Made by a program: the position numbers and the translations under genes
The notes under the pieces: model-generated
The model's input: only the letters and a program-made list of their open reading frames with translations
Database searches by the model: none
Told to the model about the DNA's origin: nothing
Part shown: positions 44,508 to 64,000 of the stretch, piece after piece
How positions within the stretch are numbered: the stretch's first letter is position 1
Layout of the letters: each line of letters begins with the position of its first letter
DNA from: Prolixibacteraceae bacterium
GTDB lineage: Bacteria > Bacteroidota > Bacteroidia > Bacteroidales > Prolixibacteraceae
Assembly (NCBI GenBank): GCA_021740385.1
Contig: JAIOZY010000009.1
Span: 1-64,000, forward strand
Length of the DNA stretch: 64,000 nucleotides
Direction: 5' to 3'

Positions 44508-47500
44508 ATGAAAACAACTTTTTACTTATTATTAAGCTTTTTGCTTATTAGTACATTTAGTTGGGCAAACAATACTGCTCAAATAATGAAAGCAGAAACA
44601 TCCCCTCAAATTGATGGGACTAAAGATGCAATATGGACTACAGCTACAGCCGTTAGTCTAGGCGAAATGACCAACGCCGGTGATGGAGATGCTTCTGTAG
44701 AAGCCACTTGGAGTGCGCTGTGGGATAACGAAAACCTTTACCTTCTTTTTGAAGTTGTTGATGATGTTGCCATTAATAATGGCGCTGAAAATGCAATATG
44801 GTATATGCACGATTGTATTGAGGTTTTTACCGATTTGCAGAATTTGAAAAGCGAAGCTAAAGTTACCAATAGCAATGGTGAATACCAGTTACGTTTTATT
44901 TATGGTCTAGATGATGAACCTATTTATGAAAACCCGGAAATGACTACTTATGAGTCAGTTTCGGAGTTGACCGCTAATGGTTATATTATAGAAGTGAAGT
45001 TTCCATGGAACCTTATTACTGAAGGTACCGATGTAGCAATTCAGGAAGGACTTAAATTTGGTGTCGATTTTAAAGTGACAGATATTGATGCCCCTACCGA
45101 AGGCTGGTGGCCTCCTCATTTTGAATTTGCATGGAATGGAGCTCAGGATCAAGCCCCTGTAAATTTTGGTGAGGTCGAGTTGATTTCGACTTCTGCAAAA
45201 ACAGCTATTGTTTATTCTACCTTCAGTTCTCCATCTATCGATGGTGATATTGATGCACTTTGGGTAGATGTTGAGACAAACGAAATTGATGTGCTGGCCA
45301 ATGCCGGCGATGGTGATGCCACTGTTTCAGCTACGTGGCGTGCATTGTGGGATATCGAAAACTTATACATGCTTTTTGAGGTTGAAGATGATGTTGCCAT
45401 AAATAATGGTGCAGGTAATGCGATTTGGTATATGCACGATTGTATTGAAATGTTAACCGATATGCAGAATCTGAAAAGCGAAGCGGAAGTTACAAATAGT
45501 GATGGTGAATACCAGTTGCGTTTTATTTATGGGCTTGACGATGAGCCAATATACGAAAACCTTGAAATGACTACCTATGAGTCAGTTTCGGCTTTATCTG
45601 ACAATGGTTATGTAATTGAAGTGAAATTCCCATGGGCTGATCTTATTGATAACACTACCGTTAATATTGCTGAGGGTTTGCAGTTTGGTGCCGATTTTAA
45701 AGTAACCGATATAGATGCGCCTACCGAAGGCTGGTGGCCACCGCATTATGAATATGTTTGGAACAATGCAGCCGGTAAAATACCTGCTAATTTTGGTTTG
45801 ATTGCCCTTGCTCAATCGTCCGATATTGAAAAACCAACCGCACCAACGAATTTAACATCATCGCTCGACGAAATTGACCTGACTTTAAACTGGACTGCTT
45901 CTACTGATAATGTGGCCGTAAGCGGTTACAATGTTAAAAACGGAAGCCGGTTGATGACTAGTGTTACCGGTAGTATAACTACTGCACAAATTAAATTGTC
46001 TTATGGTACCACTTATAATATTTCGGTAGTTGCCATTGATGCAGCTGGTAATGAGTCAGATCATAGTAATATAGTTGAAATTGTTACCGAAGGATTAGCG
46101 CCAATTCCTGACGGAACACCAATCGCAAACGCAACCGAAGCTGTAACAATAGACGGTAAAGCCGATGAAGCTTCGTGGGAAACCGCTTCGTATTTGATTC
46201 CACGTGTTGATACATGGGCCCCAAGCGCTGAAGTTAACGGACATGCAGATTTTTCAGCCTCGTTTAAAAGTTTGTGGGACGATGAATACGTTTATTTCCT
46301 TTTTGATGTAACAGACGACAAAGTGCATCAAGGTGTTGGAGAGGCCGATAACCTTTGGGTGCAGGATTGCATCGAAGTGATTATTGCTAAAGACGAAACC
46401 GAAGATTATAAATATCGTTTTGTTCATGGAAGAGACAACGAATCGGTGTTAAGTGGCGAAGAAATTGAAGTGCCTGCCGGATTCAAAAATGTATCGACTA
46501 AAACTGCCACAGGTTACATTATTGAGGTGGCAATACCTTGGAGCACAATACCTGGAATTGATGTAGTTGAGCGTGCCTCAACTTTCAATGTAAGCTTCTC
46601 AGCGTTGGATATCGATCGCGAAGATGCTTCTCTTTGGACACACATTAGTGGTATTTTAGGCTGGCCATATTCAACAGTATCAAACGTTATGGCTTTAGGT
46701 AATGCTGAGGATGTAATGCTTGTTGATGCTCCCGCCGCACCTGCCGGTTTAACTGCCGTAGCCAACGATTTTAAAAGCGCTAATTTAAGTTGGACAGCTT
46801 CTGAAGGGGCTCTTTTATATACCATTGTGCTTGATGGAAAAATAGCGGCCTCAACAGGCAACACTTCATTTACTTTAAGTGGGCTTGAAGCTGAAACCAC
46901 ATATAACATTGAAGTTATTGCCAACAATGCACAAAAATATTCCGCAGCTTCAAATAAAGTTTCTGTTACAACCAAAGAAATGCCCAACCCAACCATACGT
47001 AAAGTAGGTATTGCGAAAATAAATGTTGATCCATCTATCGATTACGAAGTTTGGGATACCATTGTTGCTGCTGAAGTGTTTCATCCCGAAAGGACTTTCG
47101 ACCCTGTTGATTTTTCAGGTAGTTGGAAAGCTTTGTGGGACGATAATTTTATCTATTTCCAGGTTAGTGTTCACGATGCTGATATTTATAATTCAGATGG
47201 TGATGGATGGAAAAATGACAATATCGAATTGCATTTCGACATGAACAACGAATCGGATGGAACTTCGTGCGAAACTGTAGATGAAAACATGCAAATTGAT
47301 AACTTTCAGTATCGTTTTATTGCTTACGATAAAGTAACGCAAACCGGCTCGGGTAATGCCCCTGTTTGGAACGGTGTTGGGGCAAACTATTTCGACTTGT
47401 TCGAAGATGAAAACATTGTTGGTTATCTGGCTGAAATTGCCATCCCCTGGACCAGTTTAACCACCGAAAAGTCGGATGAGATTACATTTAATCCAGCAAT

Positions 47501-47960
47501 GAACAGCGAGTTTGCATTCGAAATTAAAATTACCGATAAAGACCCGTTTGTGGACGATGCCGGAGCTACAGTTTATGATGATGCCGAAGCCAATGGCGAA
47601 ATGTGCTGGAATTTACAGGATTATGCGATTAGTCCAAACCGTAACAATTCACAATATGGCAAAATCTTCCTCTCAACGGGACAAGTACCTTTTGTCAACT
47701 CGGTTAAAAATGTGACTAATTATGCCGAATTGAATGTGTATCCAAACCCGGCCAAAGATGTGTTGAATATCGATATACCATCAGTCGCGTTTGCTGAAAT
47801 CACTTTAAGCGATATTTCGGGTAAAGTGATTTTAACTAAAACGATTGGGCAAAATGCATCTGTAGAAAGACTTTCAGTTTCGGAACTCAAATCAGGAATC
47901 TATTTGTTAACTGTATCAGGTCCTGCTGAAATTAGTAGAGCGAAAGTAGTAGTTCAGTAG
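44508..47960 (+). CDS. T9SS-exported protein with four CBM9-like domains and FN3 domains, no catalytic domain seen
   Basis: 1150 residues. Signal peptide 1-20. Four CBM9/DOMON-like beta-sandwiches (about 25-225, 235-440, 540-745, 830-1065) each start with an IDG...W motif and carry ALWDxENLYLLFEV-like and VQDCIEV/HDCIEV strands. FN3 domains lie at about 443-530 and 750-825. The last 75 residues are a type A T9SS sorting domain (LNVYPNPAKDVLNI). Domains 1 and 2 are nearly identical at DNA level, pointing to recent duplication. It is the first gene of the operon and probably captures glycan at the cell surface. Confidence 0.8.
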   Translation: MKTTFYLLLSFLLISTFSWANNTAQIMKAETSPQIDGTKDAIWTTATAVSLGEMTNAGDGDASVEATWSALWDNENLYLLFEVVDDVAINNGAENAIWYMHDCIEVFTDLQNLKSEAKVTNSNGEYQLRFIYGLDDEPIYENPEMTTYESVSELTANGYIIEVKFPWNLITEGTDVAIQEGLKFGVDFKVTDIDAPTEGWWPPHFEFAWNGAQDQAPVNFGEVELISTSAKTAIVYSTFSSPSIDGDIDALWVDVETNEIDVLANAGDGDATVSATWRALWDIENLYMLFEVEDDVAINNGAGNAIWYMHDCIEMLTDMQNLKSEAEVTNSDGEYQLRFIYGLDDEPIYENLEMTTYESVSALSDNGYVIEVKFPWADLIDNTTVNIAEGLQFGADFKVTDIDAPTEGWWPPHYEYVWNNAAGKIPANFGLIALAQSSDIEKPTAPTNLTSSLDEIDLTLNWTASTDNVAVSGYNVKNGSRLMTSVTGSITTAQIKLSYGTTYNISVVAIDAAGNESDHSNIVEIVTEGLAPIPDGTPIANATEAVTIDGKADEASWETASYLIPRVDTWAPSAEVNGHADFSASFKSLWDDEYVYFLFDVTDDKVHQGVGEADNLWVQDCIEVIIAKDETEDYKYRFVHGRDNESVLSGEEIEVPAGFKNVSTKTATGYIIEVAIPWSTIPGIDVVERASTFNVSFSALDIDREDASLWTHISGILGWPYSTVSNVMALGNAEDVMLVDAPAAPAGLTAVANDFKSANLSWTASEGALLYTIVLDGKIAASTGNTSFTLSGLEAETTYNIEVIANNAQKYSAASNKVSVTTKEMPNPTIRKVGIAKINVDPSIDYEVWDTIVAAEVFHPERTFDPVDFSGSWKALWDDNFIYFQVSVHDADIYNSDGDGWKNDNIELHFDMNNESDGTSCETVDENMQIDNFQYRFIAYDKVTQTGSGNAPVWNGVGANYFDLFEDENIVGYLAEIAIPWTSLTTEKSDEITFNPAMNSEFAFEIKITDKDPFVDDAGATVYDDAEANGEMCWNLQDYAISPNRNNSQYGKIFLSTGQVPFVNSVKNVTNYAELNVYPNPAKDVLNIDIPSVAFAEITLSDISGKVILTKTIGQNASVERLSVSELKSGIYLLTVSGPAEISRAKVVVQ
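44760..45595 (+). repeat. Internal tandem duplication of CBM9-like domains 1 and 2
   Basis: The segment starting GATGATGTTGCCAT at 44760 recurs at 45387 with a 627 bp (209-codon) offset and stays closely similar for about 200 bp, including silent positions, such as the shared TATATGCACGATTGTATTGA. This indicates a duplication younger than the other domain splits in the gene. Confidence 0.75.
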
Positions 47961-48050
47961 TAAGTTTTAAGATAACCGGTAGTCATTTATTTAATGATGG
48001 CTGCCGGTGATTCTTATTTTATCTCAATATCCTATAATAAATCTAATTCT

Positions 48051-51000
48051 ATGTTAAAAATTGCCAATATATTGTTCTTTTTAATTTTTTGTTTTACTGT
48101 GTTTTTTTCGCAAGCACAGGAAACAAGAGCCTATATAGCTATTGCGCCTGATGCTCCAGTCATTGATGGTACTATAGATGAAGTATGGAGCAATTCTACT
48201 AAAAACCCCATTTTAAATGTTGTAAACGGGCCAGATACAACACCCGATGACATTTCGGCATTTTGGTATTCCCTATGGGACGAGCAAAACCTTTATTTTT
48301 TGTTTGAAGTAACCGACGATATGCTAAGAAATAATGGTCCCGAAGCTACAAATTACTGGATTCATGACTGCGCAGAGATTTTTTTAGATATGTTGAACGA
48401 AAAAAAACAGGTTGAAACAGGCGATGACGAAAATGACGATAAATACCAGTATCGATTTATTTACGATTTAGATGATGAACCCATAAGTGAGAACCCGCCA
48501 ATGGATGGTGTTGAAAATGTTTCAATGGCTACCGAAAAAGGATACAATATCGAAGTGAAAATGCCTTGGACTACATTAATCGGTTCGCATCCTTTTGGTG
48601 ATGTAATAATTGGCAGGAGCATTGGAGCTGAGTTTCAGGTAGCCGATTTGGATGATAACCCCGGACAGTTTATGCCCGACAACAATCTTGCATGGAACAA
48701 CACAACAGGAGACCGCATACATCTTACATCCAATTTTGGAACCATAATTCTGGTCGACAATAATTTACCCGACACAACTCCACCGGCAGCCATATCCGAC
48801 TTGAATGCTACTACATTAAGTGCAGTAGAAGTAAATCTCGATTGGACATCGCCCGGCGATGATGGCATGGTTGGCCTGTCAACTGCTTATGAAATACGTT
48901 ACAGTACCGAAACCATAAACGATTCAAATTGGGAAAGCGCACATGTGGTAGAACAAACATTGGCGCCAGAAATTGCAGGAACTCAACAGTCGTTTATTGT
49001 TTCAGGTTTAACCGGTGGAACCACTTACTATTTTGCAATAAAAAGCATCGATGAGGCAGGCAATGTTTCAGCACTTTCGAATATTGTAAATACCGAAACT
49101 TCGGCTGCCGATCTTATTGCTCCAGCGGCCATCACTGATCTGAAGGTTGTGAAGTCGCGCCCAATTTCAATTGAAATTTGCTGGACAGCTACGGGCGATG
49201 ATGGGAGTGACGGTACTGCAACAAGTTATGATATACGTTATTCACAGTCAAGTATTACCGAAGCCAATTGGGATTCATACCCTCAACAACCAAACACTCC
49301 CGTGCCGCAGGCAGCCGGTAGCCAACAATCAGTTATTGTTATTGGACTTAACCCTTCTACAGAATACAATCTTGCCATAAGGGCAATTGACGGCCAAAAT
49401 AACATTTCGCCAATTTCGAATATCGTTACCGCTACCACAAGTGAATTGGTGGTAAATGCCAAAACCCCAATGGATCAATTCATTGGAGTGAATGCTTTTA
49501 TCGATGACCCACTTGACAAAATGATGGTGGCAGGATATATTCGTGAATACCATAGTTGGAATTGGGACGAAGGCGATATTTGGGATGGGGGTGGTAATTT
49601 AAATTACCCGGGCTACCCAAACAATCAAAATGCATTTAACCCCAGCTGGGCCGGTGGCGGATGGAATTTCGACAATTTTTACAAAGACTTAACCGATGCC
49701 GGGTTATTCGTTTGCCCTGCCATTCAAGGTTCGGTTAAATGGCTCAACGATGAAAAAAGTTTTCCGTCAAGCAATATCCCGGTACGTTCAGGGCTTGATC
49801 GTAACGACCCGACTTCGTACCGCGAACATGCCGACCATATGTTCCAGTTTGCCGCACGTTACGGTTCAACCCATGTATCTGATGAACTTTTGAAACTTGC
49901 CGATAACCAAACACGTGTTTCGGGCCTTGGGTATGTCAGCTATCTCGAAAATTGGAACGAACCCGATAACTGGTGGGATGGGGATGATGCTGAATTTACA
50001 CCTGCAAACCTTGCAGCAATGGGCAGTGCCGACAGAGACGGCCACGAGGGAACCATGGGCAATACCTATGGAGTGAAAAATGCCGATCCCAATATGAAAT
50101 TGGTAATGGGAGGGCTAACCCAACGGGGTTTGGATGATAATTTTAGCTACATTGAAGAGATAAGGCAATGGTGCCTTGAAAACCGTACCGATAAACAATT
50201 TGTTTACGATGTTATTAACGTGCATCATTATTGCGGACAAATAAGCCCCGAAGAGGCAAAAATTAAGGAAACCATTCAGCAACTGGTCGATTATCGCGAT
50301 CAGTACATGCCCGATTGTGAAATATGGCTCACCGAATTTGGTTGGGAAACCAGCATTTACGATACTCCCTTTTCTGCCATTGAGGTGGGCAGTTTTAGTC
50401 GCGAGGAAGTACAGGCTCAACGTATAGTGCGTGAATATCTGCTACTTTCATCAACAGGCATCGATCGTGCTGCTCAATACATGCTGCGAAATGTGGAAAA
50501 CAACGGTAGAGGTCAGCATACGAGCAGCGGATTTACTTCTGTCAAAGGTGAATGGTTTCCAAAACCATCGTGGTACTATGTTTATACAATGAAGAATACC
50601 TTAAAAGGGATGTTTTACATTGGTGAACAAGCTTCAATGAATTCCAATGTGAACATATATAAGTACCAGAATGAAGCTGGTGATACAACGGTTTATGCAT
50701 TGTGGTGCCCCACCAGCAACGAAGTTGTTGTGGCCGACTATCAGCTTAGTTTACCGAATGCTCCTACAAGTGCAACGCTGGTCGAGATGGTGGTTGACGA
50801 AACCGAAGGGGTTAAAACTGATTTGAAGATTGCACGAAATACTGTTCTTGTTAATGTTAGCGAACGTCCTGTATTTGTGATAACTACATCAAATGCCAAT
50901 TCGGCAGGCAGTGTTAAAATTCAAAATAAGGCATTCAGTCTGTATCCCAGTTATACATCAAACACAATTGGTGTTAATTTAACGTTTGGGAATACAAACA

Positions 51001-51167
51001 AGTCAACAAAAGTCACCATAATGAACCAAGTGGGTAATGTTGTTTCTGAAAACGAATCGAACCTTTCTCTGTTCAGAATCGATGTTTCTCATTTTGTGCC
51101 GGGAGTTTATTTTGCCCGCATCAAAAGCGGAATTCATTCCGAAGTACATAAATTTATTAAATACTAA
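48051..51167 (+). CDS. T9SS-exported glycoside hydrolase (clan GH-A type) with CBM9-like and two FN3 domains
   Basis: 1038 residues from the ATG at 48051, which gives a clean signal peptide (MLKIANILFFLIFCF); the frame itself opens 19 codons earlier. A CBM9-like domain (about 25-240) and two FN3 domains (about 250-460) precede a (beta/alpha)8 catalytic domain (about 470-860). Glu637 in ENWNEPDNWW and Glu762 in WLTEFGWE stand at the positions of the clan GH-A acid/base and nucleophile. The C-terminal 78 residues form a T9SS sorting domain. The GH family is not recognised; a GH39-like or GH5-like assignment would be a guess. Confidence 0.78.
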   Translation: MLKIANILFFLIFCFTVFFSQAQETRAYIAIAPDAPVIDGTIDEVWSNSTKNPILNVVNGPDTTPDDISAFWYSLWDEQNLYFLFEVTDDMLRNNGPEATNYWIHDCAEIFLDMLNEKKQVETGDDENDDKYQYRFIYDLDDEPISENPPMDGVENVSMATEKGYNIEVKMPWTTLIGSHPFGDVIIGRSIGAEFQVADLDDNPGQFMPDNNLAWNNTTGDRIHLTSNFGTIILVDNNLPDTTPPAAISDLNATTLSAVEVNLDWTSPGDDGMVGLSTAYEIRYSTETINDSNWESAHVVEQTLAPEIAGTQQSFIVSGLTGGTTYYFAIKSIDEAGNVSALSNIVNTETSAADLIAPAAITDLKVVKSRPISIEICWTATGDDGSDGTATSYDIRYSQSSITEANWDSYPQQPNTPVPQAAGSQQSVIVIGLNPSTEYNLAIRAIDGQNNISPISNIVTATTSELVVNAKTPMDQFIGVNAFIDDPLDKMMVAGYIREYHSWNWDEGDIWDGGGNLNYPGYPNNQNAFNPSWAGGGWNFDNFYKDLTDAGLFVCPAIQGSVKWLNDEKSFPSSNIPVRSGLDRNDPTSYREHADHMFQFAARYGSTHVSDELLKLADNQTRVSGLGYVSYLENWNEPDNWWDGDDAEFTPANLAAMGSADRDGHEGTMGNTYGVKNADPNMKLVMGGLTQRGLDDNFSYIEEIRQWCLENRTDKQFVYDVINVHHYCGQISPEEAKIKETIQQLVDYRDQYMPDCEIWLTEFGWETSIYDTPFSAIEVGSFSREEVQAQRIVREYLLLSSTGIDRAAQYMLRNVENNGRGQHTSSGFTSVKGEWFPKPSWYYVYTMKNTLKGMFYIGEQASMNSNVNIYKYQNEAGDTTVYALWCPTSNEVVVADYQLSLPNAPTSATLVEMVVDETEGVKTDLKIARNTVLVNVSERPVFVITTSNANSAGSVKIQNKAFSLYPSYTSNTIGVNLTFGNTNKSTKVTIMNQVGNVVSENESNLSLFRIDVSHFVPGVYFARIKSGIHSEVHKFIKY

Positions 51168-51180
51168 ATAAATCTAAAAA

Positions 51181-54100
51181 ATGATTAACAGTATCTTTCG
51201 AAAAAAGCTTTGGTTGTCGCTATTAATGCTCTTCGCATTTGTAACGGTTTCATTGGCACAAAAAATTGACATAACAGGCATTGTTCTCGACAGTGAGACT
51301 AACGAAGCCATACCGGGTGTTAATGTTCTGATAAAAGGTGAATTAACCGGAACAGTAACAAATGTTGATGGCGAATTTAAAATAAATGCCGAAGCGGGAA
51401 GTACCCTTATTTTTTCGTTTTTGGGTTACCTAACCCAGGAAATCAAAGTTGAAAATGCCACTACGTTAAAAGTGGTTTTGAAGCCCGATGTTCAACAAAT
51501 TGACGATGTGGTAGTGGTTGGTTATGGCGTAATGAAAAAAAGTGACTTAACCGGATCTGTTTCGTCGGTTAAAAGCGAGTCGTTTAAAGAGATGGCCAAA
51601 ACAGGTCTCGATCAGGCTTTGCAAGGACGTGCTGCCGGGGTAATGGTTACCAATAATACCGGTGCACCGGGTAGCGGTGTGTCCATCCGTATTCGTGGTG
51701 TAGGATCTATTGCACGAAGCAACGAGCCACTTTATATTATTGATGGTGTGCCTATCGACAATGCGCAGATTTCGAACAAACAAACCGGTAACGACCAAAT
51801 CAATACGCTGAGCGGCTTAAATCCCGACGATATTGAGCGTTTCGAAATTCTGAAAGATCCCGCTTCGTGTGCCATTTATGGTGCAAGGGGGGCCAACGGT
51901 GTGGTGCTCATTACTACAAAAAGAGGTTCGAAGGGAGTCAACAAATTTGAATTTTCTAGCTATTACGGCGTTTCGCAAGTGGTGAAAAAACTCGATTTGC
52001 TGAATTCAACACAATACCAACGTTTGGTTTACGAAGGTTTGAAGCGTATGCGTGTTCCCGAAAGCGATACCCGCTACATTACCGATGAAGAAGTGGCCTT
52101 GTATAATACCGATTGGCAAGACGAAATTTTTAGAATTGCTCCTACTTACAATGTAAACTTATCGGCACGTGGTGGTTCCGACAAAGCTACCTATTATATA
52201 AGTGGTGGTTATTATAAATCCGATGGTATTGTGATCAATACAGGTATAGAACGCTTTTCGGCTACATCGAATGTAGATATTAATATGACCGATAAATTAA
52301 AGATCGGGCTTAATTTAACTGCCAGTCATACAACAGGTTTGAGACAAAACAATAGTGGTATGCAAGCCGGTGTTGACCAAAATAAAGCTACCGGTGCACC
52401 AATTATTGCATCGGCACTTTCGTCCAGTCCGGTTTACCCGGTCCGCGATTCAATAGGCCGATACGGGGTTGATTTACGAAACCGTGCTATTCCCAACCCG
52501 GTAATGCTGGCAAATGAGCAGGCACTCAATTATACTACCAACCGTATTTTGGCCAGTGTTTATATTGATTATGAAATTATCAAAAACCTGACATTTCGAA
52601 ATGTATTTGGATCGGACCTTCGCAATACCAAGGAAAGCTTTTTTTGGGGGCCCTATTATTATCCCGACGATAATTTGTTGATGCCTGCTTCAGGGCGTGC
52701 TTCCGACAATTATAACAACGGTTTATCGTGGGTTTTTACCAGTACGTTGAATTACATGTTCGACATCGGGAAAAACAGTTTTAACGTATTGCTCGGTCAC
52801 GAGGCTTCACGCATGCAAACCACCGGAACCTATGTCGAGGTAGGTGGCATGCCCATCGATTATATTAAAACATTCGACTCATCGCCGGCCAATACCATTT
52901 CAACAAATTTTTACACTGCTAACACGTTGGAGTCGTACTTCGGTAGGGTGAATTACAGTTACGATGATCGTTACTTATTTCAGATCAACATTCGCCGCGA
53001 TGGTTCATCGCGTTTTGGACCCAGCAAAAAATGGGGTTTTTTCCCGGCATTCTCGTTTGGTTGGAATGCTGCCAAAGAAAGCTTTATGGAAAGCCAGCAT
53101 GTAATTAACGAACTTAAACCCCGCTTGAGTTACGGTATAACCGGTAACCAAAACATAGGAGATTACTCGTGGCGTGGTTCGTTCGAAGTTGGTACATTAC
53201 CCAGTAGCGATGCCGATGGCATTGTAATGAATTACCTCGATCAATTGGGTGGAAAATATACTTCAATATCCGATTACGGTTTCTCGTGGGAGGAATGTCG
53301 TACAACCAATATTGGTTTTGATTTGGGTATGTTAGAAAACCGCATCTATTTATCGTTTGATGCCTACAAGCGGGTAACAAATAATTTGATTCTGAACGTG
53401 CAACTTCCCATTACAACCGGAGTATATTCGGCAACCAACAACGCCGGGAAACTAACCAATACAGGTTACGAATTTGCCATCACCTCGCGCAATATTGTTG
53501 GAGAATTTAACTGGACCACTGATTTTAACATCAGCTCATCGAAATTGCATGTCAATAAATTGGTAACTGACAGTATTCAAGTTGGAAACAATATACTGAT
53601 TATGGGTCAGGATCTTCAGATTTTTACATATATACGCGAAGAGAATGTCGATTCGATGAGGGGGAACGTTGTTTTACGCGACCTTAACAGTGACCAAAAA
53701 GTAACTTATGGTGGAGCCAGTGCCGATCGTACTACTGTAGGCTCACCGCTGCCAAAATTTTATGGTGGTATGAACAACACTTTTTCATATAAAGGGTTCG
53801 AATTGTCTGTTTTTCTTCAATATGTTTATGGAAACATGATTTACAACTCAACACGCCAGTCGCTCGAAACTTTGCACATACCACCAGGGCAATCGCTGAT
53901 TGTTAACTCCACAGTGGAATCTTTTGAAAACCGATGGATATCGAGAGATGTAACCGATGACGAAGGCAATGTTATTTGGGCACAAAACAGGCATACTCCC
54001 TATCCGGCTACCAATTTTGCCGGAAACAATGTCGATCAACGCGAAGGCCACAATGGTTTTGTTGAAGATGGTTCGTACCTAAGGCTTAAAAATGTCAGCT

Positions 54101-54327
54101 TTGGTTATTCCATTCCGCGCAAATATTTGACAAAGGTTAATTTAACTTCAGCAAAAATATATGTTTCGGCAACCAACCTGTGGACATTAACCAATTATTC
54201 CGGTTACGATCCTGAAGTGAACAGTGTGTCGGGTTCGGGCATCGAGAGCAATTTAGGTATTGGCCGCGACAGTGGAAGTTATCCGCAATCGCGCACTATT
54301 ACCATGGGTTTAAACATATCGTATTAA
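51181..54327 (+). CDS. SusC/RagA-family TonB-linked outer-membrane transporter
   Basis: 1048 residues. Signal peptide ending SLAQ. A carboxypeptidase-D-like domain (about 28-100; ITGIVLDSETNEAIPGVNVLIKG) precedes the TonB-box/plug segment VVVVGYGVMKKSDLTGSVSSV and the plug motif IRGVGSIARSNEPLYIIDGVP. The 22-stranded barrel ends in TITMGLNISY. With SusD it imports oligosaccharides across the outer membrane. No N-terminal STN domain, so direct control by an ECF sigma/anti-sigma pair is unlikely. It lies 13 bp after the GH-A gene and 21 bp before susD. Confidence 0.93.
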   Translation: MINSIFRKKLWLSLLMLFAFVTVSLAQKIDITGIVLDSETNEAIPGVNVLIKGELTGTVTNVDGEFKINAEAGSTLIFSFLGYLTQEIKVENATTLKVVLKPDVQQIDDVVVVGYGVMKKSDLTGSVSSVKSESFKEMAKTGLDQALQGRAAGVMVTNNTGAPGSGVSIRIRGVGSIARSNEPLYIIDGVPIDNAQISNKQTGNDQINTLSGLNPDDIERFEILKDPASCAIYGARGANGVVLITTKRGSKGVNKFEFSSYYGVSQVVKKLDLLNSTQYQRLVYEGLKRMRVPESDTRYITDEEVALYNTDWQDEIFRIAPTYNVNLSARGGSDKATYYISGGYYKSDGIVINTGIERFSATSNVDINMTDKLKIGLNLTASHTTGLRQNNSGMQAGVDQNKATGAPIIASALSSSPVYPVRDSIGRYGVDLRNRAIPNPVMLANEQALNYTTNRILASVYIDYEIIKNLTFRNVFGSDLRNTKESFFWGPYYYPDDNLLMPASGRASDNYNNGLSWVFTSTLNYMFDIGKNSFNVLLGHEASRMQTTGTYVEVGGMPIDYIKTFDSSPANTISTNFYTANTLESYFGRVNYSYDDRYLFQINIRRDGSSRFGPSKKWGFFPAFSFGWNAAKESFMESQHVINELKPRLSYGITGNQNIGDYSWRGSFEVGTLPSSDADGIVMNYLDQLGGKYTSISDYGFSWEECRTTNIGFDLGMLENRIYLSFDAYKRVTNNLILNVQLPITTGVYSATNNAGKLTNTGYEFAITSRNIVGEFNWTTDFNISSSKLHVNKLVTDSIQVGNNILIMGQDLQIFTYIREENVDSMRGNVVLRDLNSDQKVTYGGASADRTTVGSPLPKFYGGMNNTFSYKGFELSVFLQYVYGNMIYNSTRQSLETLHIPPGQSLIVNSTVESFENRWISRDVTDDEGNVIWAQNRHTPYPATNFAGNNVDQREGHNGFVEDGSYLRLKNVSFGYSIPRKYLTKVNLTSAKIYVSATNLWTLTNYSGYDPEVNSVSGSGIESNLGIGRDSGSYPQSRTITMGLNISY

Positions 54328-54348
54328 TTGAATATAATTTTAAGAGTT

Positions 54349-55884: not shown

Positions 55885-55934
55885 ACATTTAGTTTTATTA
55901 GTTATATAGTGTAATAGTTGATTAGTGTACTAAG

Positions 55935-58358
55935 ATGAGAAGGCTGGTTGTTTTTTTTACAATGTTATATTATTCATTAGTTGTTAATGGGCAGGAAAAC
56001 CCTAAAGGAACTAATTACGGAAAATGGGAAAACCTGAAAAACGTTTGGGAAGCATTGTGGATATCCGACCCCAATAGCAACAGCAATGAATATGGTGTAT
56101 ATCATTTTCGAAAAAATATTTGGCTTAAAGCACAGCCAACTCATTTTATTATTCACGTTTCGGCCGATAATCGGTATCAATTGTTTGTTAACGGGTTACC
56201 CGTTTGTAAAGGCCCGGCAAGGGGAGAGTTTCAAAATTGGAAGTATGAAACCATCGATATTGCTGGGCATCTGGATGCAGGCTCAAATACAATTGCAGCA
56301 AAGGTGTTTAATTTTGGAAAATACCTTCCGGCACAACACTTTACTTCCGGCACAGGTTTTATCCTTCAGTCCGATGCCAAAGAGCATTCGGTCATTAATA
56401 CCAATAATTCGTGGAAGGTTTTCCGAAACAAAGCCTATTCTCCGTTAAGGGTAAGTGGCGATCGAGTGCGTGGTTATTATGTCGTAGGTCCTTGCGATAG
56501 CATTTTTGCTGCAAAATATCCATGGGGTTGGGAAATGCCCGGTTTTGATGATTCAAATTGGTCAAATCCCAATCAATCAATTATTGATCGCGGAACGGGA
56601 GCTGGTTTTATGCACGGTACAACACGTTCGCTGGTAAAACGTACCATACCTTTAATGGAAGAAAAAGCAAAAAAATTTGCAGCAGTAGTTAGGGTTGAAC
56701 CTAAACAACAAATTGAACAAGGTTTTTTGAATCAAGAAAAACCGTTAAAAATTGAAGCAAATAAAAAGGTTAAAATATTAATCGATAATCAAATATTAGA
56801 CGTTGGTTACCCCGAGCTGATTATTTCGAATGGGAAAAATTCGCATATCAGGATCGAGTATGCCGAGGCTTTGTTTGACGAGGACAATTTGAAAGGCAAC
56901 CGTAACGAAATTGAAGGCAAAAACATCGCCGGCGCTTTTGATGTAATGGTAGCCGACGGGGGCATCAACCGCAAGTTTTCGCCTTTGTGGCTACGTGCTT
57001 TCAGGTATGTACAACTCGAAATAACTACTTCTGGTGAGCCGCTTTATATCAACAATTTTAGTTACCACAGCTTCAAATATCCTTTCGAAGAAAAAGCAAG
57101 AACCCATTTTGAACCACAGCTTTTCCCTTTCGAAAAAATTTGGGATACTGCATGGCGCACAGCCCGCCTTTGTGCCAACGAAACTTATTGGGATTGTCCG
57201 TATTACGAACAATTACAATACATTGGCGACACACGTATTCAAGCTTTAATATCGCTTTATGTGGCAGGCGACGACAGGCTGATGCGGAATGCCCTAATCC
57301 AGTTTAATAATTCAATTACGGGTGAAGGATTAACCAAATGCAACGCCCCAAATAAAAAACAAGTGATTATTCCACCATTTTCGCTGGCATACATTGGTAT
57401 GTTGCACGACTATATGATGCATCGCAACGATGTAGACTTTTTAAAACCCTTGTTGCCCAATATTGAAGTGATACTGGCTTGGTTCGCCCGTCGGATGCAA
57501 ACTAACGGACTGCTTGGCCCGGTGGATTGGTGGCCCTTTGTCGATTGGACCGATGGTTTTTTCAATGGCATCCCTCCTGGGGCCGAGGAGGGCAATTCAA
57601 CCTTGCTGACCCTGGTTTATGCCAAAGCACTGAGCGATGCAGCAGATATTTTTACGGCGTACGGACACCTTGCAAAAGTCGAAACCTGCAGGCAAAAGTT
57701 GGCCGAAATTGAGAAAGGAGTCAACCAATTGTGCTTCGACACTTCGAAAGGATTGTATGCCGATACCCCCGAAATGAAAAGCTACTCGCAGCACACTAAT
57801 GTGTTGGCCGTGTTATCGGGAGTAGCAGCAGTGCGCAACCAAAACGAGCTAATGAAACAAGTGCTGACCAACAAGAGCCTCATTCAATGCTCGCTGTTTT
57901 ATAAATTTTACCTGATGCGTGCTTTGGCAAAAACCGGTATGGGCGAACATTATTTCGATCAGCTGAAAATTTGGGAAGAAATGTTGGAATTGGGATTAAG
58001 TACTTTCCCCGAAACCGCAGGTAAATCGAATTGGCAGGATGATATTCGTTCTGACTGCCACGCCTGGAGCGCTAGTGTTTGTTACGATTTTTTGTCAATC
58101 ATTTGCGGTATTAATCCATTATCTCAAGGTTTTAAAACTATTAAAATTGCTCCTGCACCGGGAGAGTTAAATCGTTTGAAAGGCAAAATGCCACATCCAC
58201 ACGGGACGATTTCGGTTGATCTAAAAATTACCGAAACCGATGTTACAGGATCAGTAAGCTTACCTGGAAATACAACAGGCATTTTTTGCTGGCAAGAGAA
58301 AATATTGCAGTTAACTGAAGGTAGTCAGCCAATTAACATAAATAATAAAAATGATTAA
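55935..58358 (+). CDS. GH78-type alpha-L-rhamnosidase-like protein
   Basis: 807 residues. A short signal peptide (LVVNGQ) is followed by beta-sandwich domains with WEALWISDP and NRYQLFVNGLPVCKGPARGE. The (alpha/alpha)6 barrel has CANETYWDCPYYEQLQYIGDTR, with Asp420 and Glu425 near the catalytic region, and DWTDGFFNGIPPGAEEG. The C-terminal SDCHAWSASVCYDF block holds a further family motif. GH78 enzymes remove terminal alpha-L-rhamnose; related activities are possible. The gene ends 8 bp inside the GH3 gene, so translation is coupled. Confidence 0.82.
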   Translation: MRRLVVFFTMLYYSLVVNGQENPKGTNYGKWENLKNVWEALWISDPNSNSNEYGVYHFRKNIWLKAQPTHFIIHVSADNRYQLFVNGLPVCKGPARGEFQNWKYETIDIAGHLDAGSNTIAAKVFNFGKYLPAQHFTSGTGFILQSDAKEHSVINTNNSWKVFRNKAYSPLRVSGDRVRGYYVVGPCDSIFAAKYPWGWEMPGFDDSNWSNPNQSIIDRGTGAGFMHGTTRSLVKRTIPLMEEKAKKFAAVVRVEPKQQIEQGFLNQEKPLKIEANKKVKILIDNQILDVGYPELIISNGKNSHIRIEYAEALFDEDNLKGNRNEIEGKNIAGAFDVMVADGGINRKFSPLWLRAFRYVQLEITTSGEPLYINNFSYHSFKYPFEEKARTHFEPQLFPFEKIWDTAWRTARLCANETYWDCPYYEQLQYIGDTRIQALISLYVAGDDRLMRNALIQFNNSITGEGLTKCNAPNKKQVIIPPFSLAYIGMLHDYMMHRNDVDFLKPLLPNIEVILAWFARRMQTNGLLGPVDWWPFVDWTDGFFNGIPPGAEEGNSTLLTLVYAKALSDAADIFTAYGHLAKVETCRQKLAEIEKGVNQLCFDTSKGLYADTPEMKSYSQHTNVLAVLSGVAAVRNQNELMKQVLTNKSLIQCSLFYKFYLMRALAKTGMGEHYFDQLKIWEEMLELGLSTFPETAGKSNWQDDIRSDCHAWSASVCYDFLSIICGINPLSQGFKTIKIAPAPGELNRLKGKMPHPHGTISVDLKITETDVTGSVSLPGNTTGIFCWQEKILQLTEGSQPININNKND

Positions 58359-60657
58359 GCAAGTTTTTTTAATAATAATATCCATGGCTTTTCTTTTTTG
58401 TTTCTGTACAAAAAAGGAAGAATTTTCATATAAAAATCCCGATTTACCAGTACAAGAAAGGATTGATGATTTGATTTCAAAAATGACCTTAGAAGAAAAG
58501 GTCGCACAGCTTCAGATTGAAGACTTTATATATGATTATACGGATACTGTAAAGCTTTATGAACAGTTAAAAAATGGACTTGGTATGCTTTCGTCGTATC
58601 AGTTGAATTTGGAACAAACTGTTAAGAGCAGGAATTTAATTCAAAAATTCATCATTGATAACACCCGTTTGGGTATCCCTGTTATTTTTCTCGATGAAGG
58701 CTTGCATGGATTGATGAAACCAAATTCAACCAGTTTCCCTCAAGCAATTGGGTTGGCATGCTCGTGGGATACCGATCTTTACGAAAGGGTTTTTACTGTA
58801 GTAGCACACGAAATGCGATCGAGGGGAGCCCAAATAGCTTTATCGCCGGTTTTGGATGTTTGCCGTGATCCACGCTGGGGAAGGGTTGAGGAAACTTATG
58901 GGGAAGATCCCTTTCTGAATGGAATACTGGCAATTGCAGCCATTAAGGGGTTTCAGGGGAGTGCTGATGGTAGCATTGCCCCTGGTCATGTTGCTGCAAC
59001 ACTAAAACACTTTGTTGGTCACGGTGAACCCGAAAATGGGCTAAATATTTCCCCATGCAATATTTCAGAAAGGGTTTTGAGGGAAATGCACATGTTGCCA
59101 TTTAAAATGACAATCGATAGTGTAAAACCTTTTGCATTAATGGCTTCGTATAACGAAGTTGATGGCATGCCATCGCATAAAAATAAATGGTTGTTGAGAA
59201 AAATACTCAGGGAAGAATGGGGCTTTGATGGCATGTTGATATCCGACAAAGGTGGAATTGAAATGCTTTACGATCGTCATAAAGTAGCCAATACACCCGA
59301 GGATGCTGCATTGCAAGCATTCGAAGCAGGTATTGAAGTTGCTTTGCCCGGTAAGTATTATAACTATTTACCACAACTGGTAAGCGAAAAAAAAATTGAA
59401 GAGAAAGATGTTGATAAAGCAGTAGCCAAAATTCTGCAACTTAAATTCGAGAGCGGGCTGTTCGATAATCGGTATAGCGATCCTGAGGAAGCAATAGCTA
59501 TCAGCCATCTGGAATCTTCAAAAAAATTGGCCCTCGAAGCTGCAGAAAAATCAATTGTTTTGCTCGAAAACAAGAATCAGATTCTTCCTTTAGATATTGA
59601 TAAATACGAAACCATTGCCGTTGTTGGACCTTGTGCCAATGATGTATCGTTGGGAGGATATCCGGGCGGACCTTATTATAAAACATCGATTCTGAAAGGA
59701 ATACAAAATTTTGTGGGCGATCGGATTAATATAATACATTCAAAGGGCACCACCATTACAAAAGATAGCGAAAAGGATATTAATTATAAACGCTGGCAGG
59801 CCGACAGTATAAAATTTGTTCCCCGCGAAGAAAACCTCCAATCGATTAAAGAAGCTGTAAAGGTGGCCCGACAAGCCGATATAATTATCCTTTGTGTTGG
59901 CGAAACAGAATATATCTGTCGCGAGGCATGGTCTAAAACACACCTTGGTGATGCAGCAACGCTCGATTTAATTTGTGAACAAAATGAATTAGCCGAGGCG
60001 ATGTTTAACACCGGGAAACCCGTTATTGTTTGTTTAAGTAACGGAAGGCCATTGTCTGTGAACATGATCGCCGGGCGTGCTGATGCTTTGCTTGAATGTT
60101 GGTACATGGGGCAAGAAACAGGCCGTGCTGTTGCCGAAATCCTTTTCGGAAAAGTATCACCATCGGGGAAACTAACGATTACAATCCCGCGTTCGGTTGG
60201 GCAATTGCCAATTTACTACAATCATAAGCCCTCAGCGCGGTTTGTCGATTATGTAACCATGGGCAGCAAACCCTTGTATCCTTTCGGATATGGTTTATCG
60301 TACAGTAACTTTAAATACAGTAAACCGCTTTTAGACATACTTTCAGTTAAAAATGGAGCAAAAGCAAGGGTTAGTATCGACGTGAGAAATGAAGGAAGGA
60401 TGCCTGCCGACGAAATAGTACAACTTTACATAAGGGATAAGGTAAGTTCGGTCTCGAGACCGATAAAGGAATTGAAGGGTTTTAAACGTATTACATTGGA
60501 TGTTGGTGAATCTGAGACCGTTTCTTTTGAAATTGATCATTCAGTTCTCAGTTTTCATAACGAAAACATGGACAGGGTAGTAGAGCCCGGTGAATTTGAA
60601 ATAATGATTGGACGTTCATCGGCCGATTATCAAAGTGTAATTTTTGCTATTGAATAA
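58351..60657 (+). CDS. GH3-family beta-glycosidase lipoprotein
   Basis: 768 residues. Lipobox CFC near residue 19. The GH3 N-terminal barrel has FLDEGLHGLMKPNST and LSPVLDVCRDPRWGRVEETYGEDP. The nucleophile is probably Asp299 in LISDKGGIEM; SDK is less common than SDW/SDY. The C-terminal domain has SIVLLENKNQILPL and a FN3-like end domain. It likely removes terminal beta-glucose or beta-xylose in the periplasm. Overlap with the GH78 gene ties the two activities to one substrate. Confidence 0.88.
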   Translation: MIKQVFLIIISMAFLFCFCTKKEEFSYKNPDLPVQERIDDLISKMTLEEKVAQLQIEDFIYDYTDTVKLYEQLKNGLGMLSSYQLNLEQTVKSRNLIQKFIIDNTRLGIPVIFLDEGLHGLMKPNSTSFPQAIGLACSWDTDLYERVFTVVAHEMRSRGAQIALSPVLDVCRDPRWGRVEETYGEDPFLNGILAIAAIKGFQGSADGSIAPGHVAATLKHFVGHGEPENGLNISPCNISERVLREMHMLPFKMTIDSVKPFALMASYNEVDGMPSHKNKWLLRKILREEWGFDGMLISDKGGIEMLYDRHKVANTPEDAALQAFEAGIEVALPGKYYNYLPQLVSEKKIEEKDVDKAVAKILQLKFESGLFDNRYSDPEEAIAISHLESSKKLALEAAEKSIVLLENKNQILPLDIDKYETIAVVGPCANDVSLGGYPGGPYYKTSILKGIQNFVGDRINIIHSKGTTITKDSEKDINYKRWQADSIKFVPREENLQSIKEAVKVARQADIIILCVGETEYICREAWSKTHLGDAATLDLICEQNELAEAMFNTGKPVIVCLSNGRPLSVNMIAGRADALLECWYMGQETGRAVAEILFGKVSPSGKLTITIPRSVGQLPIYYNHKPSARFVDYVTMGSKPLYPFGYGLSYSNFKYSKPLLDILSVKNGAKARVSIDVRNEGRMPADEIVQLYIRDKVSSVSRPIKELKGFKRITLDVGESETVSFEIDHSVLSFHNENMDRVVEPGEFEIMIGRSSADYQSVIFAIE

Positions 60658-60675
60658 TATCTTAAAAAGATAATT

Positions 60676-60816
60676 ATGAAAGAACGATTTATAAAAGGAC
60701 TAATTCAATTTAAGAAAAAGCCTGTTTATCAAAAAAATAAAAAATTGATTGATGGTTTATTTGTGATTTTCCTAATGATTATTACTTACATTATAGTGTC
60801 GATATTTTTATCGTAA
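60676..60816 (+). CDS. 46-residue single-pass membrane protein
   Basis: ATG at 60676 to TAA at 60814-60816, 46 residues, 18 bp after the GH3 stop. The first 24 residues are basic (MKERFIKGLIQFKKK, then KNKK). The rest (about 25-45) is a single strongly hydrophobic helix ending IVSIFLS, giving an N-in membrane protein. No family recognised. The close spacing within the operon and the clean basic-then-hydrophobic layout support a real gene, but chance in AT-rich DNA cannot be excluded. Confidence 0.5.
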   Translation: MKERFIKGLIQFKKKPVYQKNKKLIDGLFVIFLMIITYIIVSIFLS

Positions 60817-61069: not shown

Positions 61070-62314
61070 ATGAGGAGTAATTTAATACATCAAGAGTATC
61101 AGATATATAAGTCTTATCCTAAAAATATGAGGATACTTTTAATGACAAACCTTTTGTATGCTCTGGTATTACCAATTCTGGAGTTATTTGTAGGGGCCTA
61201 TATTTTAAGGCAAACCAGCAATACATCTTATGTGGTTATTTATCAGTTGGCTGTTTATACCGGCATACCATTTACCTTTTTAATTAACGGTTTCCTGTTA
61301 CGTTACATAAAAATTGCCCGTTTATACTCGCTGGGCATGATAATGAGCGGGGTGGCAATGACTGTAATGATGATTTTACCCGAACTTAAACTGGCCGGCA
61401 TTGCCCTTGTTGGTTTAACCATGGGCACATCGTATGGTTTCTTTTGGTGTAACCGCGATTTTTTAGCCATTTCATCGACCAACGACAGTAACCGAAATTA
61501 CTACTTTAGCCTCGAAACGGTATTTTATACCATCACTTTTATTATAATGCCCGCCCTGGCCGGTTTGTTCATTAGTTTGGGCGAATTGAGGGGTTGGTTT
61601 CCGCCGCGTTTTGCATACATCACACTAACTTGTGCTGTTTTTGTGTTAACCGTTATCGCTTCGGTAATGGTGCATCAAGGCAATTTTAAAAATCCAAAAC
61701 GCGAGCGTTTCGTCTTCTTCAAATTCCGTCCTGAGTGGTACAAAATGCTTTGGCTCGGATCATTTAAAGGAATTGCCCAGGCTGCCATTTTCTTTTATCC
61801 CATATTGCTCATTTTAACATTTGTGGGTAACGAAGGGTCGTTGGGAGGAATTGTTGCAGTCAGTTCGTTGCTAACTACTGCCTTACTCTATTTTATTGGC
61901 CGTTTTTCGAAGCCCGAACACCGCATTTACGTATACGGAGCCGGCTTGTTACTTTATTTATTGGGCGGCACTTTTAACACCATATTCTTTTCGGCAGCAG
62001 GTGTGCTTTTGTACCAAATGTGTAGTTCGTTGGCCCGCCCACTGCTCGATGCCGCTTATTTCCCGATACAAATGAATGTAATAGACAAACTTTCTGAGAT
62101 TGAAAAACGGGGGAAGTTTGCCTACATTTTCAATCACGAGTTTGGCTTGTATTTCGGACGTTTGGTTGGTTGTATGGTGTTTTTGGTAACTGCTTATGTC
62201 TTTTCGCCCGAAGCCGCCTTGCGCTATTCACTGCTTATCATAGCAGTTATTCAGGTTTTATCGATACCCATTGCCAAAAACCTTATAAAACTGATGAGAA
62301 AAATTGATATGTAA
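61070..62314 (+). CDS. MFS transporter
   Basis: 414 residues with about 12 hydrophobic helices, beginning near residue 23 and ending near 405. The loop between helices 6 and 7 (about 208-225) is basic, as in the major facilitator superfamily. No signal peptide. Placed between GH3 and the phosphorylase gene, it most likely carries the trimmed oligosaccharide into the cytoplasm. A fusion partner or substrate-specific motif is not evident. Confidence 0.82.
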   Translation: MRSNLIHQEYQIYKSYPKNMRILLMTNLLYALVLPILELFVGAYILRQTSNTSYVVIYQLAVYTGIPFTFLINGFLLRYIKIARLYSLGMIMSGVAMTVMMILPELKLAGIALVGLTMGTSYGFFWCNRDFLAISSTNDSNRNYYFSLETVFYTITFIIMPALAGLFISLGELRGWFPPRFAYITLTCAVFVLTVIASVMVHQGNFKNPKRERFVFFKFRPEWYKMLWLGSFKGIAQAAIFFYPILLILTFVGNEGSLGGIVAVSSLLTTALLYFIGRFSKPEHRIYVYGAGLLLYLLGGTFNTIFFSAAGVLLYQMCSSLARPLLDAAYFPIQMNVIDKLSEIEKRGKFAYIFNHEFGLYFGRLVGCMVFLVTAYVFSPEAALRYSLLIIAVIQVLSIPIAKNLIKLMRKIDM

Positions 62315-62355
62315 ATACCTATTCTAAAATAATCGAAATACTAAACCAATAACAA

Positions 62356-64000
62356 ATGCAGAATAAATACGGATATTTTAAAAACGACGGAAAAGAATTT
62401 GTCATTACCAACCCCCAAACGCCTCGGGCATTCGATAACTTTATGTGGAACGATGTGCTTTTCTCGTCGGTACACCAAACCGGCGTTGGCTATATCGACT
62501 ACCAAATTGAGGATACCGAAGCCGTTCAGTTGTTAACCGGGATTGGCCGCATTTGCGATTTTGACGTGTATGGCCGCGATCACCTCATGAGCCGCCTGGT
62601 TTACATACGTGATAACGAAACTGGCCGGTTTTGGAATGCCAACTGGGAACCCGTAAAACGCGAATACCAATTTTTTGAGTGTACTCATGGACTTGGTTAT
62701 TCCAAAATTGAATCGAATACCGAAGACATACAATCTTCGTTTCGAATATTTGTACCAAAAGGCAACGACCCTGTTGAACTTTGGTCGCTGGGCTTTGTGA
62801 ATACCTCGGATAAAAAACGTGATATTTCGATTTTCCTCTACAACCAGTTTCAGTTTGCCTACAAATGGGGCTTTAACAGCTATGGCGATATGTTTTTCCG
62901 CACCACTTATTTGAGTAAAGAAAACAATGCAATGGTAGCCAACAAGCACCCACATATAACACCACACAATCACCAAACAGCATTTATGGCTCCCGATCGC
63001 AAAATTGATGGTTTCGATGGTAGCCGTGATGCTTTTATGGGCTTGTACAATGGGCTGAACGAACCGCAGGTAGTGGTTGAAGGTAAGTGCAGAAGTTCAA
63101 TAGGTTCGAGTGATGCAACCATTGGGGTTTTGCAATTCAACTTTTTATTGGAGCCTTGGCAACACGAAGCCATCAACATGGTATTGGGCGTTTGCGATGC
63201 TGTTGAAGGCATTGAACCGCTTAAGGCTAAATACCTCTCGACCATTGATAAAGAGTTTGAAAAATTGAATAATTACCACACCAATTTTATCGAAAACAAC
63301 CACTTCGAAACCCCCGACGTGCACCTCAATATGATGCTCAACGTGTGGATGAAGCACCAAGCAGCCTATGGAGCACAATGGTGCCGCTGGGGTTGGATGG
63401 GTTACCGGGATATTGTACAGCATGGTTATGGTGTTTCGTCGTTTAACCCTGCCCGTACCAGGGAGATTTTACGCGAAGCTTTTAAACATCAATATTCTAA
63501 CGGTATGGCTCTGCGTGGTTGGAATCCGGTAGATACCAAGCCTTATTCCGACAGTGCTTTGTGGTTGGTTTTCACTTTAATTTCATACTTGAAAGAAACG
63601 TCCGATTTTGGTTTTCTTTTCGAAATTGTTGAATTCTTTGATGAAGGTTCAGCAACGGTGTTACAGCATATTGAAAGTGCACTGAATTTCCTCGAAAACA
63701 ATAAGGGAGAACATGAATTAGTGCTCATTAAATTTGGCGATTGGAACGACTCGCTTACCGCCATTGGTAAAGAAGGCCGTGGCGAGAGCGTATGGTTGAG
63801 TATGGCCTATGCTGAAGCATTGAAGCAAATGATCGGCCTTTTTATTTATCTGAAAGATATGCGGGCAGAAAGTTACCAAACTCGTTACGATAAAATTAAA
63901 AATGCAATTAACAATTCGGCATGGGACGGTGACTGGTATGTGCGTTGTTTCGACGATAATGGCCGTGCCATTGGTTCGAACCAAAGTAACGAAGGGAAAA
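62356..64000 (+). CDS. GH94-type glycoside phosphorylase, 3' end cut off by the window
   Basis: ATG at 62356; open to the window end with no stop (548 complete codons). The N-terminus MQNKYGYFKNDGKEFVITNP fits the start of cellobiose-phosphorylase relatives. The beta-sandwich is followed by an (alpha/alpha)6 barrel with NVWMKHQAAYGAQWCRW and FGDWNDSL; Asp465 in GDWND is the likely general acid. No signal peptide, so the enzyme is cytoplasmic. It would split a beta-glycosidic disaccharide with phosphate, giving a sugar 1-phosphate. The subfamily differs from canonical cellobiose phosphorylases, and the substrate is unknown. Confidence 0.8.
   Translation, partial: MQNKYGYFKNDGKEFVITNPQTPRAFDNFMWNDVLFSSVHQTGVGYIDYQIEDTEAVQLLTGIGRICDFDVYGRDHLMSRLVYIRDNETGRFWNANWEPVKREYQFFECTHGLGYSKIESNTEDIQSSFRIFVPKGNDPVELWSLGFVNTSDKKRDISIFLYNQFQFAYKWGFNSYGDMFFRTTYLSKENNAMVANKHPHITPHNHQTAFMAPDRKIDGFDGSRDAFMGLYNGLNEPQVVVEGKCRSSIGSSDATIGVLQFNFLLEPWQHEAINMVLGVCDAVEGIEPLKAKYLSTIDKEFEKLNNYHTNFIENNHFETPDVHLNMMLNVWMKHQAAYGAQWCRWGWMGYRDIVQHGYGVSSFNPARTREILREAFKHQYSNGMALRGWNPVDTKPYSDSALWLVFTLISYLKETSDFGFLFEIVEFFDEGSATVLQHIESALNFLENNKGEHELVLIKFGDWNDSLTAIGKEGRGESVWLSMAYAEALKQMIGLFIYLKDMRAESYQTRYDKIKNAINNSAWDGDWYVRCFDDNGRAIGSNQSNEGK

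Follow-up and report, generated by a model that had tools for sequence, protein, structure and literature searches.

Gene clusters built around a SusC/SusD pair, the polysaccharide utilization loci (PULs) of Bacteroidota, are well known, and one such locus begins in the stretch analysed here. The window, as this stretch is called below, comprises bases 1-64,000 of a contig 95,395 bases long (C6, JAIOZY010000009.1) from the 4.9 Mb draft genome of a Prolixibacteraceae bacterium, and contig positions follow the window numbering. The locus has in common with described PULs the SusC/SusD pair, secreted or exported carbohydrate-active enzymes (CAZymes) and a sensor-type regulator. Its outer, glycan-cutting enzyme resembles glycoside hydrolase family 39 (GH39), its inner, splitting enzyme is of the GH94 type, and these two, each from a little-studied group, tend to occur together. 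We consider it likely that the 16 same-strand genes of the locus, spread over about 34 kb, form a SusC/D-type PUL directed at a single heteroglycan and ending in intracellular phosphorolysis by GH94.

Gene content and extent of the locus

A preliminary description of positions 44508-64000 had listed nine plus-strand genes, and open reading frame (ORF) calls and Pfam matches place all nine where it had put them and on that strand. It had also let the run end with the GH94 gene, which is truncated by the window end. The GH94 ORF reaches 64689 on the contig, and seven further large genes follow 3' of it on the same strand, giving 16 plus-strand genes between 44508 and 78581 (ORF calls, Pfam). Two marks of a PUL, tandem SusC and SusD genes and co-located CAZymes on one strand, were found. 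The genes are as follows.

44508..47960, plus strand: protein of 1150 amino acids (aa) with four CBM9-type stretches and fn3, secreted by the type IX secretion system (T9SS) (Pfam)
47994..51167, plus strand: CBM9, fn3 and predicted GH39-like domain, T9SS-secreted (Pfam, AlphaFold2, fold search)
51181..54327, plus strand: SusC/RagA TonB-linked outer-membrane transporter (TIGR04056, Plug, CarbopepD_reg_2)
54328..55884, plus strand: SusD-like lipoprotein (PF07980 and PF14322 over cut-off)
55935..58358, plus strand: GH78-type enzyme (PF17389, PF17390 and PF08531 over cut-off)
58351..60657, plus strand: GH3 beta-glycosidase (PF00933, PF01915, PF14310)
60676..60816, plus strand: 46-aa single-span membrane protein (kept in genome G118)
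61070..62314, plus strand: major facilitator superfamily (MFS) carrier of a phosphorylase-linked family (weak MFS_1 match, loci of relatives, tree)
62356..64689, plus strand, window part ending at 64000: GH94 phosphorylase, 777 aa (PF17167, PF06165)
64842-67304, same strand: GH2 (ORF and Pfam)
67617-69560, same strand: esterase, 647 aa (ORF and Pfam)
69600-71606, same strand: second GH39-like enzyme, a 668-aa lipoprotein (ORF, likeness to the first copy)
71608-72429, same strand: BD-FAE esterase (ORF and Pfam)
72485-75622, same strand: Reg_prop/Y_Y_Y regulator (ORF and Pfam)
75643-76413, same strand: DUF5040 protein (ORF and Pfam)
76503-78581, same strand: GH127-like protein (ORF and Pfam)

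In the pathway proposed for these genes, the T9SS-secreted CBM9 proteins would hold the glycan, the CBM9-fused GH39-like enzyme would cut it internally, and SusC/D would import the pieces. Lipoprotein or periplasmic GH78, GH3, GH2, second GH39-like and GH127-like enzymes and the esterases would remove side chains and ester groups. The MFS carrier would then take a short beta-glucoside across the inner membrane, and cytoplasmic GH94 would use phosphate to convert it into alpha-glucose-1-phosphate and an acceptor sugar. What the sequences show directly is gene content and order, the domains, the secretion tails, the joint occurrence of MFS, GH94 and the GH39-like type, and the differing phosphorylase partners of the carrier family; the substrate, the place and direction of each step and co-transcription of the genes are predicted.

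GH39-like enzyme, carrier and phosphorylase

The ligand had been defined earlier from the combination of GH78, GH3 and GH94. These three are a poor basis for naming a substrate; that the GH39-like enzyme, the MFS carrier and GH94 occur together tells more. A close GH94 is found in five of 140 genomes of the bacterial family, and an MFS carrier at least 69% identical to that of the window in the same five, which span four genera. A close GH39-like enzyme (E 1e-80 or better) is present in those five and in G110, whose contig breaks within the gene; any GH39-like match is found in 22 of the 140. Joint occurrence gives a Fisher p of 1.4e-8, uncorrected for kinship. All seven loci with a close GH94, including those of Parabacteroides PH5-46 and Cerasicoccus maritimus, hold a GH39-like gene. 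The core of the locus consists of the CBM9 proteins, the GH39-like enzyme, SusC/D, MFS and GH94. GH78 and GH3 lie outside it, since genome G014 has the same order (CBM9x4, CBM9/GH39-like, SusC, SusD, MFS, GH94) with no match to either in 40 kb, and rhamnose is for that reason an accessory element of any predicted ligand.

Both CBM9 proteins carry Por_Secre_tail above the Pfam cut-off (5.7e-13 in the first), so that their earlier reading as two T9SS-exported CBM9 proteins stands; what had been overlooked is a GH39-like enzyme domain in the second. The first matches CBM9_1 at 4.5e-79 over four stretches, together with fn3; a Pfam scan found no catalytic domain in it, and it has relatives at 55% identity in G014 and 80% in G118. 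The second likely starts at 48051, judged by eye from its signal peptide, and is predicted by modelling to carry a GH39-like catalytic domain at about residues 488-965. This region has no Pfam match, that to the GH39 family profile included. Among the 67 rows of an alignment of the window domain with its relatives from 66 of 80 named loci (A2), 12 members match PF11790 Glyco_hydro_cc (best 3.7e-6) and three match PF01229 GH39 (best 0.024), counting E values up to 1. An AlphaFold2 model from the alignment with the 66 relatives has a mean pLDDT (predicted local distance difference test) of 94, and comparison with solved structures gives a GH39-type fold, with the Bacteroides cellulosilyticus GH39 protein 5JVK on top (Z 33.2 over 371 residues, 17% identity) and PslG second (Z 30.8, 19% identity). 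GH30 and GH1 types reach Z 23-26, so that the fold alone leaves the family assignment unsettled and eliminates no other GH family. A sequence profile of the domain finds 5JVK and PslG at E 0.01-0.02. Two catalytic-type glutamates, one in an NEP and one in an EFG motif, do not vary in either of two alignments, one with 15 and one with 67 rows. PslG is an endo-beta-glucosidase of a mannose-rhamnose-glucose exopolysaccharide, according to an excerpt of PMC11912335.

A second copy is present downstream in the 668-aa lipoprotein; across the domain the two share 40% identity. Relatives of the domain, 80 of 135 of which were kept, occur in Bacteroidota, Paenibacillus, Cohnella, Verrucomicrobiota, Armatimonadota and others. 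Paenibacillus cymbidii R196 holds at least five loci of the family (L056, L060, L065, L086, L127), several of which have additional stretches alongside that resemble the CBM9/GH39-like protein.

The MFS carrier scores 30.3 against MFS_1, below the Pfam cut-off of 33.4, and shows 11 hydrophobic segments. Its relatives at 45-56% identity, 14 of 18 of which were fetched (all except G017, G018, G021 and G081), have GH130 in the locus in 14 of 14 cases, adjacent in 10, and Pfam confirmed GH130 in both loci scanned. Carriers at least 68% identical are partnered by GH94 in all six loci, four within 60 bases and two with a gap of ~1.4 kb. A phosphorylase-family gene is thus present in each of the 20 loci of this carrier family examined, which suggests that the MFS protein is an inner-membrane carrier placed ahead of a phosphorylase. 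In a tree of the 20 carriers, those linked to GH94 group together (100/100), nested among those linked to GH130 if the midpoint root holds; this pattern suggests a single partner switch in which GH94 replaced GH130 behind the same carrier family. The carrier family, found with GH130 throughout loci L132-L145 (14/14), may also serve as a general marker of intracellular phosphorolysis.

Both GH94 Pfam domains score over cut-off (PF17167, 4.9e-82 and 276 bits versus 27; PF06165, 146 versus 23), and the best matches in the PDB are cellobiose phosphorylases. No hydrophobic segments were found in the protein and no signal peptide was seen by eye. Because it has neither and stands behind a phosphorylase-linked carrier, GH94 probably acts in the cytoplasm and performs phosphorolysis as the last step, in agreement with the preliminary description, which had proposed intracellular phosphorolysis.

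In a 33-row tree the window's GH94 belongs to a clade set apart with 100/100 support on a branch of 1.06; its 10 rows stand for seven distinct loci, rows L146, L147 and L148 being duplicates of G127, L112 and L077. According to excerpts of PMC5309861 and PMC8741936, the R-D, W-N-D, E and Y/H positions of GH94 serve catalysis, subsite -1 or phosphate. The clade keeps all of these, the catalytic Asp and the subsite -1 residues included. On the acceptor side, the Lys of cellobiose phosphorylase is Cys in every clade member. Also missing from the clade is a loop of nine residues into which, by count, R362 of CgCBP falls; several non-clade rows lack this loop too. R362 fills subsite +2 in the excerpted account of PMC5309861. 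Since the donor residues are intact and the acceptor site is unusual, the product is likely alpha-glucose-1-phosphate from a beta-glucoside, and the acceptor is probably other than plain glucose.

The best-scoring match outside the clade is a protein of Paenibacillus sp. YN15 (35% identical), which shows the Thr/Trp/Phe acceptor pattern of solabiose phosphorylase, with offsets counted from shared motifs; no GH130 match was found in the 20 kb around its gene. At the positions of T337, W603 and F672, placed by offsets of the same kind, the clade has Gly, Cys and Phe/Tyr, and with one of three acceptor residues kept, solabiose phosphorylase was rejected as a clean identity for the window's GH94. 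A suggestion that donor binding is affected by the replacement of Asp with His at the fifth position past the Arg of R-D was likewise dropped, the donor residues R-D, as identified in the excerpt of PMC5309861, being intact. A review mentions a further GH94 glucosyl-galactose phosphorylase, as far as an excerpt of PMC8950772 goes.

The clade is rare. Even draws of 395 genomes from the phylum (E 1e-150) and 393 from the order (E 1e-120) returned it in the bacterium's own genome alone, and among ten genomes searched of the family of Cerasicoccus it occurs in one. The same genome encodes two more GH94 proteins (contigs C107 and C51; L001, L002) with cellobiose/chitobiose phosphorylase motifs.

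Accessory genes, regulation and flanks

SusC matches TIGR04056 with 849.8 bits against a cut-off of 368, and SusD likely starts at 54349, judged by eye from a signal peptide. All three Bac_rhamnosid domains of the GH78 protein (6-hairpin, N and C) score over cut-off, and a signal peptide was seen by eye. The best PDB match and closest solved GH78 relative is RhaB (2okx, 4.2e-52), which has the DCPxYEQ motif in common with it, yet is distant and a shorter protein; we take the role of RhaB to be in gellan use. GH78 relatives are found at 47-48% identity in G127 and G131 and 85% in G118, and the enzyme is accessory, being absent from some related loci. For GH3, which has a lipoprotein-type signal by eye, the best PDB match is 5z87, followed by two xylosidases (7zb3, 8c7f). 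The nearest match of GH2 is 5t98, which bears only the label glycoside hydrolase; the GH2 beta-galactosidase 9bey comes next. The GH127-like protein is distant from arabinofuranosidases and matches the NCBIfam aceric acid hydrolase far under cut-off, and the 647-aa esterase resembles feruloyl esterases over ~140 residues. Judged by their nearest relatives, the accessory enzymes point to no single known glycan. The 46-aa gene looks real, because 41 of its 46 residues are common to G118 and the codon differences (10 synonymous, 5 nonsynonymous) are mostly synonymous and mostly at the third position.

A plain pattern search found no Bacteroidota promoter pattern on the plus strand between 42000 and 80000, and scans for sigma-70 promoters and terminators gave counts near or below those of shuffled controls. 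A 13-pair hairpin at 47975-48008, where the first two genes meet, falls between them if the second starts at 48051, as is likely. It could act as an attenuator or stabilise the RNA, with the overall hairpin count at chance. At its end the Reg_prop/Y_Y_Y regulator (72485-75622) carries a zinc ribbon of transposase type (PF12760, E 5.6e-4, under cut-off), and a Pfam scan gave no kinase or AraC domain match. It may be a one-component sensor in the membrane whose DNA-binding end derives from a transposase; nothing relevant was found among the papers listed in a literature search on this domain mix.

Upstream of the locus, a GH43 gene (42085-43725) runs in the opposite direction, and a Sua5-type gene follows the GH127-like gene on the opposite strand. 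Further out lie a flavodiiron-type protein (38754-39950) and a gene that looks TrkA-like by eye (80885-82219). In the three genomes with both flank genes on one contig (G073, G113, G114), these are at least ~129 kb apart. The single same-genus genome has neither flank gene and just a 26% match to the Sua5-type gene.

Related loci, alternatives and known systems

Gene order is kept in G118, where the locus is split over two contigs and SusC through GH94 are 84-93% identical. G127 and G131 have GH78, MFS, GH94 and the 668-aa type, and Parabacteroides PH5-46 has MFS (70%), GH94 (71%) and the 668-aa type (60%) close together. The one locus of Cerasicoccus maritimus (Verrucomicrobiota), described from ORF starts, matches to window proteins and five Pfam scans, holds GH94 (54%) and one clear GH39-like protein (43%), two weaker GH39-like matches (one with CBM9), GH3, a BNR_4 protein and two ABC permeases. 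No match to the window's MFS carrier was found in it; by eye, a short protein encoded close to its GH94 resembles transporters of the drug/metabolite type, so that more than one transporter candidate exists there. Genes for DUF2961, polysaccharide deacetylase, BNR_4, heparinase-like and sulfatase proteins are added in L112, L113 and G127, and L113 has the 668-aa type in a genome with no close GH94. Since the enzyme sets differ, the related loci point to several related, non-identical substrates. BNR_4 proteins lie near GH94 of the clade in two phyla (L171:12948-14252, L038:10526-11863). Upstream of MFS-GH94, G127 (Sunxiuqinia, L038:8313-10514) and Parabacteroides (L174:4863-7058) each encode a ~730-aa protein without a Pfam match, and these two are 52% identical over 736 columns.

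Several observations weigh against a single pathway with one substrate. The reverse association is weak: this GH94 is seen in four of 80 named GH39-like loci, although many of the 80 are short or truncated, and at 54% identity or more it was found in three of 32 genomes searched (from 33 named loci). The clear GH39-like gene of Cerasicoccus lies ~8 kb from GH94 on the other strand. A fold match at 17-19% identity leaves the bond cleaved by the GH39-like enzyme undefined, and G014, with no GH78, GH3 or downstream-gene match in the 40 kb fetched, leaves one shared substrate unproven. Gaps of 253, 152 and 312 bases, the first and last of which could hold promoters, would suit two or three separately controlled units (CBM9/SusC/D/GH78/GH3; MFS-GH94; the downstream GH2-to-GH127 genes), and G014 has CBM9/SusC/D and MFS-GH94 with no third part in 40 kb. 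The single strand throughout and the order kept from SusC through GH94 at 84-93% identity in G118 argue against such a split, and we regard separate control as rather unlikely.

Other targets were weighed as well. One is a glycoside or exopolysaccharide that contains rhamnose, galactose and glucose, like the Glc-Gal with Rha of solatriose; here GH78 would remove rhamnose, GH2 would be a beta-galactosidase and GH94 would split a beta-glucosyl-galactose-type disaccharide. This would fit the place of 9bey after 5t98 among GH2 matches and the solabiose pattern of the Paenibacillus sp. YN15 enzyme. Solabiose is present in solanine and bacterial exopolysaccharides, as stated in the excerpt of PMC8741936. 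Two of the three acceptor residues are nevertheless replaced in the clade, GH78 is absent from some related loci, and the YN15 gene, lacking GH130 within 20 kb unlike PBOR_28850 as described in the excerpted source, may encode another enzyme, which makes this target improbable. A slightly poorer prospect is an ordinary cellobiose or laminaribiose phosphorylase in a locus directed at a common beta-glucan or hemicellulose. Hemicellulose loci often contain CBM9 and GH3, and cellobiose phosphorylases are the best PDB matches of GH94. Against this stand the Cys in place of Lys, the missing subsite +2 loop (which several non-clade rows lack too) and the clear separation of the clade (100/100, branch 1.06) from the genome's two other GH94 proteins, which do carry the loop and motifs of cellobiose/chitobiose phosphorylases. 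Algal ulvan loci have GH78, GH39-like, GH43, GH3 and GH2 enzymes, so the family names recur here, and sulfatases lie near GH94 in G127 and near the GH39-like gene in L113. Pfam scans of all 16 proteins encoded in the run gave no hit to a polysaccharide lyase, GH105 or sulfatase domain, on which ground an ulvan locus was rejected, and to our knowledge GH94 has no place in the ulvan pathway; an ulvan-like target is very improbable.

A heteroglycan PUL ending in GH94 phosphorolysis stays our preferred reading. A bolder version, to which we give somewhat less than even weight, is an undescribed route in which secreted CBM9-fused GH39-like endo-enzymes would feed a GH94 clade of new acceptor specificity. 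Two phyla would share this enzyme pair but use different inner-membrane transporters, MFS in Bacteroidota and some other kind, perhaps ABC, in Verrucomicrobiota; a single partner switch would have brought the MFS carrier in from GH130 cassettes. Among the papers listed in a literature search, with PUL and CAZy collections outside it, we recognised none on a locus with the same gene set. Few GH94 activities are known, and new ones are useful for sugar synthesis. The GH39-like and GH94 specificities would predict each other: the GH39-like product, after trimming, should feed GH94. Differing phosphorylases behind one carrier family would also give a rule by which further loci with intracellular phosphorolysis can be recognised.

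The GH130-MFS cassettes of the same taxonomic family (14 loci) have the same MFS family at 45-56% identity and a phosphorylase-family gene, and presumably serve in mannoside use; the window's carrier differs in being partnered by GH94, and the two sets of carriers fall in separate tree groups. PslG and 5JVK share with the window's GH39-like domain the fold over most of its length and the two catalytic-type glutamates, whereas the window protein has the CBM9 fusion and T9SS tail and is 17-19% identical to them. Solabiose phosphorylase PBOR_28850, compared by the residue positions in the excerpt of PMC8741936 alone, is a GH94 enzyme with the subsite -1 residues and the Phe/Tyr position in common, while T337 and W603 are replaced in the window's clade. 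Compared with SusC/SusD PULs, the window's pathway probably has GH94, placed behind an MFS carrier, as its last step, and its regulator ends in a transposase-type zinc ribbon.

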